Positions 32,096-34,560 of a stretch of DNA of 37,195 nt are shown piece by piece. Source of the stretch: Bacteroidota bacterium (GTDB taxonomy: Bacteria > Bacteroidota > Bacteroidia > CAILMK01); NCBI GenBank assembly GCA_026391915.1, contig JAPLCZ010000297.1, positions 1 to 37,195 on the forward strand, in the 5' to 3' direction. The notes beneath the pieces were generated by a model, which was not told the origin of the DNA, did no database searches, and worked only from the letters and a program-made list of their open reading frames with translations. Numbering within the stretch: position 1 is the stretch's first letter; every line of letters begins with the position of its first letter. Position numbers and translations under genes: made by a program.

Positions 32096-34084
32096 CTAAT
32101 TCTTCTCTCCTAAATTTTCAAGATGTTTCATCACAAACCGCAAATCAGCATAGGAGACTGAATCTCCTAAAGCGGCTTTAGCATTAGGTAGTGTTGCACC
32201 AGGATTGGTCTTAAAAAAAACAGAAATACTATCTACTTTATCTTCACTGATGAAAGAAGAAACATTCAATTTTCCCTTTCCTACATAATGCGCCAAATGA
32301 CCTTCAATGGTTCCTGTAGAAAACCCCCGTTCTTTAGCAATTTCATCTATGGTTTTGCCTGATTTATACAACTCAAAACTTAGGCTTTTGGTGTCGGGCT
32401 TATCATCGTTTTTTTTTACACCCCTCTCTCTTTTTTGAGGAGGAGTGAGAGAAGTTGTAGTGATATTATTCTTCTCACAATAATTAAAAATAATTTCAAT
32501 AATTTCCTCTCCAAACTGTTTGAGTTTGGTTTTACCCACGCCACTTATTTTGCCAAGAGCCTCTAGAGTTGTGGGGAGATAATTGGTTAAATCCACAATA
32601 GATTTTGTAGGGAGGATGATGTACATGGGCACATCCCTTTCAATGGCTAAATCATCACGCCACTTCTTTAATTCCACATAAAGCGCAGGATACGGAATGT
32701 CTTTGGAAACAAAAGCTTTTGAAGGTTCAGTATTTTTCAGGCTTGCCCTGTAGTCAATTTCCGCATTGGCTTTGGCGTGTAAAAAATCTATTGTTTTAAA
32801 ATTATTTTGCGCTGATTTAAGGCAAGCTAATTTCACAAATGCTTCCGACTGAAATTTCTCCAACGCCTCCATTGCAGATTTTTTTACAGTGGTATTGTCG
32901 GTTTCAATAGCCAGCATTTTAGTTGGTTGGTAGATGATATTTTGTACTTTCTCTAGAAAATAATGTGTTGCCTTTTTTACCCTTTCCTGTAGTTCAATAC
33001 TTTCCTCAGGCAAGGGCACTCCATTCAATAATTGTTGCAACTGAAATTTGAATTTGTCCGCAACATTAAATATCTCAGTATGGGATGTCGACTCTATCTT
33101 TTCCAACTCAGAAATAAGATTAGCACCCAAAGTATTTCTATTTTCATTGGCAATTTTTTTCAATGCAAAATACTTGGTTCGCAGTTGTTTGAAATCAAAT
33201 AATTCAAACAATAAATCTTGTTGATATTCGGTTTTAAATCCTGCTAATAATTCATCATCAGGGGCATTGCGGCGCACATCATTATTAAAGTCCGAGATAG
33301 TATCATCTGTCTTTACACTTTTTAAACGCAGGGGAGAACTCAACACCATTCCCTCAAAACTTTTGCAACGGCTTAGGGCTACATACACCTGCCCAAAAGC
33401 AAAAGATTCTGAGGCGTCAATTATCGCTTTATCAAAAGTAAGCCCTTGGCTTTTATGGATGGTAATTGCCCACGCCAACTTCAAAGGGTATTGGGTAAAA
33501 CTGCCCACCACATTCTCAGAAATCTGTTTTGTAGTTTCATCAAGGGAGTATTTCATATTCTCCCACGTCATTTTATTAACTGCAATTTCATTGAAATCTC
33601 CCGGGCATTTTACAAAAATATCAGAGCCATTAATGCTCATAATCTTTCCAATTTTTCCATTATAGAAAAGCTTATCGCGGCTGTTATCATTTTTTACAAA
33701 CATTACCTGCGCGCCTACTTTAAGTTCTAATTCCAACTCTGTTGGGTAGGCAAAAGCTGGGAAATCACCAGTAATATCAGCAGTAAAAACTGAGGAAGCA
33801 TTATACAAAGAATTCAGTTTTCTTTGATTGATATTTTGTGCCGTAGCATTATGCGTAGTAAGGGTTATATACCCTTCCGACTCATGCGGACTAAAGTTAG
33901 GGATATACCTTTCGTTGATTTCCGAAATCACTTCTGCATCCAATTCGTTGTGCCGTACTTTATTTAATAAGCCAATAAAATACTCATCTGATTGTCGGTA
34001 AATATGTTTTAGCTCAATGCAGATTGGCTCTGTTTTTTTGAGGGCTCTGCTACTAAAAAAATACAGTCTTGCAACACCCGCCAC
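32096..34084 (-). CDS. PIF1-like helicase, C-terminal part (frameshifted relative to 34009-34560)
   Basis: 662 codons open from a GTG at 34084, but real homology starts at about 34060 (FFSSRALKKTEP). It holds the remaining SF1 helicase motifs (LAWAITIHKSQGLTFDKAIID, YVALSRCKSFEGM), then an HRDC domain (DLAIERDVPMYIILPT..., LEALGKISGVGKTKLKQFG) and a C-terminal helix-turn-helix (ELYKSGKTIDEIAKERGFS). Joined to the upstream part by a -1 shift it would make one protein of about 821 residues. Alone it lacks the nucleotide-binding site, so it should be inactive unless the shift occurs. It may be a frameshifted pseudogene, a programmed frameshift, or a sequencing error in a seven-base run. Confidence 0.82.
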   Translation of the reverse strand: MAGVARLYFFSSRALKKTEPICIELKHIYRQSDEYFIGLLNKVRHNELDAEVISEINERYIPNFSPHESEGYITLTTHNATAQNINQRKLNSLYNASSVFTADITGDFPAFAYPTELELELKVGAQVMFVKNDNSRDKLFYNGKIGKIMSINGSDIFVKCPGDFNEIAVNKMTWENMKYSLDETTKQISENVVGSFTQYPLKLAWAITIHKSQGLTFDKAIIDASESFAFGQVYVALSRCKSFEGMVLSSPLRLKSVKTDDTISDFNNDVRRNAPDDELLAGFKTEYQQDLLFELFDFKQLRTKYFALKKIANENRNTLGANLISELEKIESTSHTEIFNVADKFKFQLQQLLNGVPLPEESIELQERVKKATHYFLEKVQNIIYQPTKMLAIETDNTTVKKSAMEALEKFQSEAFVKLACLKSAQNNFKTIDFLHAKANAEIDYRASLKNTEPSKAFVSKDIPYPALYVELKKWRDDLAIERDVPMYIILPTKSIVDLTNYLPTTLEALGKISGVGKTKLKQFGEEIIEIIFNYCEKNNITTTSLTPPQKRERGVKKNDDKPDTKSLSFELYKSGKTIDEIAKERGFSTGTIEGHLAHYVGKGKLNVSSFISEDKVDSISVFFKTNPGATLPNAKAALGDSVSYADLRFVMKHLENLGEKN

Positions 34085-34560
34085 TCATCATCTTTAATTA
34101 CCGGAGAGAGCTGATGCAAATCCCCAATCATCAATAATTGAACACCACCAAAAGGTTTTGTGGTATTGCGGTATTGGCGAAGAACAGAATCAATTCCATC
34201 CAGCAAATCTGCCCTCACCATACTTATTTCATCAATTACTAATAGGTCAAGGCTTTTAATAAGATTGATTTTTTCTCTGTTAAATCTTCTAAATCCATCC
34301 TGAGTTCTGGGTTCTGCATCTGGGATGTTTGGCCCAAAAGGAAGTTGAAACAAAGAGTGAATTGTTACCCCACCTGCATTGATTGCCGCCACTCCTGTTG
34401 GCGCTACAACAGCCATTCTTTTTGGCGTTACCTTTTTTAGATTATGCAGGAAAGTAGTTTTACCAGTACCTGCTTTACCGGTTAAGAAAATATTCTTATC
34501 CGTAAACTGTACAAAGTCAGAAGCAAGTTGGAGTTCGGGGTTGGTTTCCATTTCCATCAT
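34009..34560 (-). CDS. PIF1-like helicase, N-terminal part (ends early after frameshift)
   Basis: 183 codons containing Walker A (LTGKAGTGKTTF, Lys34), motif Ia (VVAPTGVAAINAGG), Walker B (LLVIDEISMV, Asp110-Glu111) and motif III (MIGDLHQLSPVIKDDEW). After residue 169 the frame carries 14 unrelated residues and stops, while the helicase continues in the -1 frame. Its ATG overlaps the stop of the M28 peptidase by one base (TAATG), implying coupled translation. This is the ATPase half of a PIF1/RecD-like SF1B helicase with HRDC, probably acting in DNA repair or replication. Confidence 0.82.
   Translation of the reverse strand: MMEMETNPELQLASDFVQFTDKNIFLTGKAGTGKTTFLHNLKKVTPKRMAVVAPTGVAAINAGGVTIHSLFQLPFGPNIPDAEPRTQDGFRRFNREKINLIKSLDLLVIDEISMVRADLLDGIDSVLRQYRNTTKPFGGVQLLMIGDLHQLSPVIKDDEWRVLQDCIFLVAEPSKKQSQSALS
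34054..34060 (-). other. Candidate -1 frameshift heptamer T TTT TTA
   Basis: On the minus strand the zero frame reads ATT TTT TTA GTA. The heptamer T TTT TTA fits the X XXY YYZ rule and is the one used by HIV-1. A -1 shift here makes the next codon AGT at 34054, exactly the frame of the C-terminal half. I found no convincing stem-loop just downstream. Confidence 0.5.

Follow-up and report, generated by a model that had tools for sequence, protein, structure and literature searches.

A PIF1-like helicase gene of a Bacteroidota draft genome, probably broken by a 13-base deletion beside a codon run that mimics a viral frameshift signal

We examined a PIF1-like helicase gene that is divided between two overlapping minus-strand open reading frames (ORFs) in a 37,195-nucleotide stretch of Bacteroidota DNA (the window), corresponding to contig C128 in a draft genome of 325 contigs. 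The features of the locus are:

34560..34009, minus strand: ORF1, the 5' helicase fragment (183 aa; Pfam PIF1, PF05970, E=3.7e-28)
34084..32096, minus strand: ORF2, the open frame with the downstream helicase half (662 aa)
32096..34063, minus strand: 3' fragment in the -1 frame, with the second RecA-like half, HRDC and HTH_40 (Pfam, alignment)
34054..34060, minus strand: T TTT TTA heptamer, conserved Y-F-F-S coding sequence in a shifted frame
34055..34065, minus strand: break region TGTATTTTTTT, 11 bases as against 24 in relatives

ORF1 is the PIF1 ATPase half, with Walker A, Walker B and the GDxHQLxPV motif present. In the alignment, 165 in-frame residues precede the break and are followed by an out-of-frame tail that runs to the stop at 34009. 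The 3' fragment opens with TAT TTT TTT AGT AGC (YFFSS), matching relatives, and its residues 1-260 match solved PIF1-type structures. Taken across both fragments, the domains are those of the PIF1-like helicase class (PIF1 ATPase, second RecA-like half, HRDC and HTH_40). The ORFs overlap by 76 bases and differ in frame by -1. The minus-strand sequence at the junction is GAC TGT ATT TTT TTA GTA GCA in the ORF1 frame and CTG TAT TTT TTT AGT AGC in the ORF2 frame, and the T TTT TTA heptamer occupies the canonical -1 register at the junction. The first-pass annotation had described two helicase halves offset by -1 that meet at such a heptamer in the correct register; the ORF list and the junction sequence confirm its coordinates, frames and offset, and the register was verified as well.

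Relatives were drawn from 60 relative genomes together with genomes of the same family and order and GTDB genomes, which gave 71 sequences aligned across the site. Bacteroidota PIF1-like HRDC/HTH_40 helicases (e.g. L032 GWA2_31_9 and L039 Pelobium manganitolerans) carry the same motifs at the site as the window copy and are 50-60% identical to it over the whole length; the closest, L032, reaches ~60% identity in the joint alignment. These helicases are encoded in one frame of ~810-870 aa with four extra loop residues, whereas the window copy is broken. A single open frame spans the site in 71/71 aligned relatives, and only the window copy is interrupted, at 34055-34065. A literature search on PIF1/HRDC helicases in Bacteroides turned up nothing specific.

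The break region TGTATTTTTTT is flanked upstream by GAC (34068-34066), the last codon shared on that side, and downstream by AGT AGC. The spacing from HQLSPV to FFSS is 56 bases in the window and exactly 69 in eight close relatives; 13 bases are therefore missing from the helicase gene. At the protein level, the distance from motif Q to FF is exactly 22 residues in 66 of the 71 relatives and 18 in the window, and the net 13-base loss amounts to the removal of four residues, together with a change of frame, in a loop whose length is nearly constant among relatives. The earlier remark that this loop is about four residues shorter than in relatives, as a 13-base deletion would explain, was thus right, and the suggestion of an inactivating indel is supported by the relatives' spacing as regards the loss itself. 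We conclude that the helicase gene has very probably (probability about 0.93) been broken by a net 13-base deletion, with no programmed frameshift.

In this reading, the deletion lies in the short, near-fixed-length loop between the GDxHQLxPV motif and YFFSS. The frame shifts at the deletion, and translation from the start would yield a 183-residue product that lacks the second RecA-like half and the C-terminal domains. Because 13 = 1 mod 3, the TAT TTT TTT AGT codons fall into the -1 slippage register. Close relatives encode Y-F-F-S as TAT TTT TTT AGT or TAT TTT TTT AGC, and the ORF2 frame of the window agrees with them, as it does with the TAT TTT TTT AG(T/C) found at YFFSS in the closest Bacteroidota helicases. 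The most frequent form at the site is TATTTTTTT (18/71 relatives), and TTTTTTA occurs there in 17/71. As the aligned codons indicate, the heptamer is the family's ancestral Y-F-F-S coding sequence in a shifted frame and not a recoding signal. A conserved Phe-Phe-Ser codon run can mimic a viral frameshift signal exactly after a nearby deletion.

Apart from the deletion, the helicase fragments break three invariant columns of the alignment (intact relatives break zero to six), no second lesion was found in them, and the flanks are otherwise clean. On this sequence evidence the deletion event is recent or non-biological. No second copy of the helicase was found in the same genome. Within the bacterial family the helicase is not universal: two drafts, each of them incomplete, show no copy.

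The split is probably an ordinary small-deletion break that arose by assembly error or recent mutation. The lesion itself is read directly from the sequence; its origin, whether error or recent deletion, we infer, and an assembly or consensus error seems a somewhat likelier source of the 13-base loss than a true inactivating deletion. This preference comes from a survey of broken genes that covered 0.46 Mb of the draft, counting the window. The purF gene (L188, G000:C22, 3013-4890, plus strand) is split at NYQDNL-VIDDSIVRG, with 1 base missing relative to seven relatives, and is whole in relatives where it was found. The gpmI gene (L203, G000:C162, 3142-4528, plus strand) is ~125 bases short and changes frame, from the conserved TFFFSGG. 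Each is the sole copy, and no BPG-dependent mutase (gpmA) in the same draft scored above the cut-off; gpmI is the only phosphoglycerate mutase found. A living genome without PurF and phosphoglycerate mutase is unlikely, and draft errors are therefore the likelier common cause. Suspicious frame-switch pairs, those that have no ATG close by, are also about twice as dense in this draft (56 per Mb) as in the same-family genome G001 (28 per Mb). Since the draft has frame-breaking gaps in housekeeping genes, its other 'split genes' deserve distrust.

The strongest competing account is that the organism itself recently lost these bases in a genuine inactivating deletion, which would make the gene a young pseudogene; we rate it somewhat less likely than not. 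Besides the clean flanks, it is favored by the kind of lesion: multi-base deletions are typical of mutation, and losses of 13 bases are unusual for short-read sequencing error. As the helicase is, in addition, not universal in the bacterial family, a true loss is plausible. Nor is the sequence generally poor, given that rpoB and rpoC of the same genome are intact and that the helicase is the one broken gene noticed within the window. Against a young pseudogene stand the broken sole copies of purF and gpmI, since a growing cell would hardly be expected to do without both at once.

The other accounts fare much worse. A lone one-base error or indel in a seven-base homopolymer, also raised in the first-pass annotation, draws on the location of the A7/T7 run (34055-34061) at the junction. 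We reject it as very improbable, since the run has the same length in the window as in close relatives (L032-L037 also have seven T's) and the loss is of 13 bases, not one.

A programmed -1 frameshift at the T TTT TTA heptamer, proposed as a means to set the ratio of a short ATPase fragment to the full-length helicase, appears more improbable still. The heptamer does lie in exact register at the junction, and in this respect the window resembles dnaX, the IS3/IS1 transposases and HIV-1 gag-pol, which share an in-register X XXY YYZ at a -1 frame change. Unlike in those systems, the split is not conserved, there is no shared stimulator and 13 bases are missing. The comparison of homologues that had been suggested as a check on conservation of the split went against the proposal: it is present in 0/71 aligned relatives, every one of which has an uninterrupted frame. 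The frameshift product would itself be four residues short in a loop of near-invariant length, and the conserved codons already account for the heptamer. In-register T TTT TTA is, moreover, common in this AT-rich genome, because it occurs seven times in the 26 other ORFs of the window (10,666 codons); in-register X XXY YYZ with a second triplet of A or T occurs 70 times in the same codons.

The 87 nt of RNA downstream fold slightly better than shuffled sequences (z -2.1), which speaks for the proposal, but the significance is gone once upstream bases are included (z -0.6), the predicted hairpin begins at the slippery site so that the usual spacer is absent, and two close relatives show no comparable fold (z +1.0 and +0.2). 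The first-pass annotation had seen no clear stimulatory hairpin downstream; there is a weak, spacerless stem that is missing from the two relatives folded, and not a conserved structure at the proper spacing. Frameshifting measured in E. coli reaches only ~0.3% at the best heptamers when no stimulator is present, and the U_UUA tetramer is weak, barely above background (PMC4066793). With no relative split, 13 bases lost and a hairpin that is not shared, programmed frameshifting was rejected. Equally far-fetched is a tolerated lineage-specific deletion in which low-level slippage on the pre-existing, conserved heptamer would supply small amounts of a full-length helicase that lacks four residues.

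Several further observations were made in the draft that contains the broken helicase gene. A POT-family peptide transporter (L202, G000:C161, 1614-89, minus strand) is broken after FFSPLI, with more sequence apparently missing. No slippery heptamer was seen in the junction sequences of purF, gpmI or this transporter. Repeat proteins and a histidine kinase are apparently split by frame changes (L111, 38-3133, plus strand; L208, 6451-2652, minus strand; L204, 6222-5129, minus strand). CoaC and CoaB occupy two different frames that overlap (L098, 13080-11887, minus strand), an arrangement that may be natural; CoaBC was dropped as a further broken gene, as CoaC and CoaB are also separate ORFs in several relatives.
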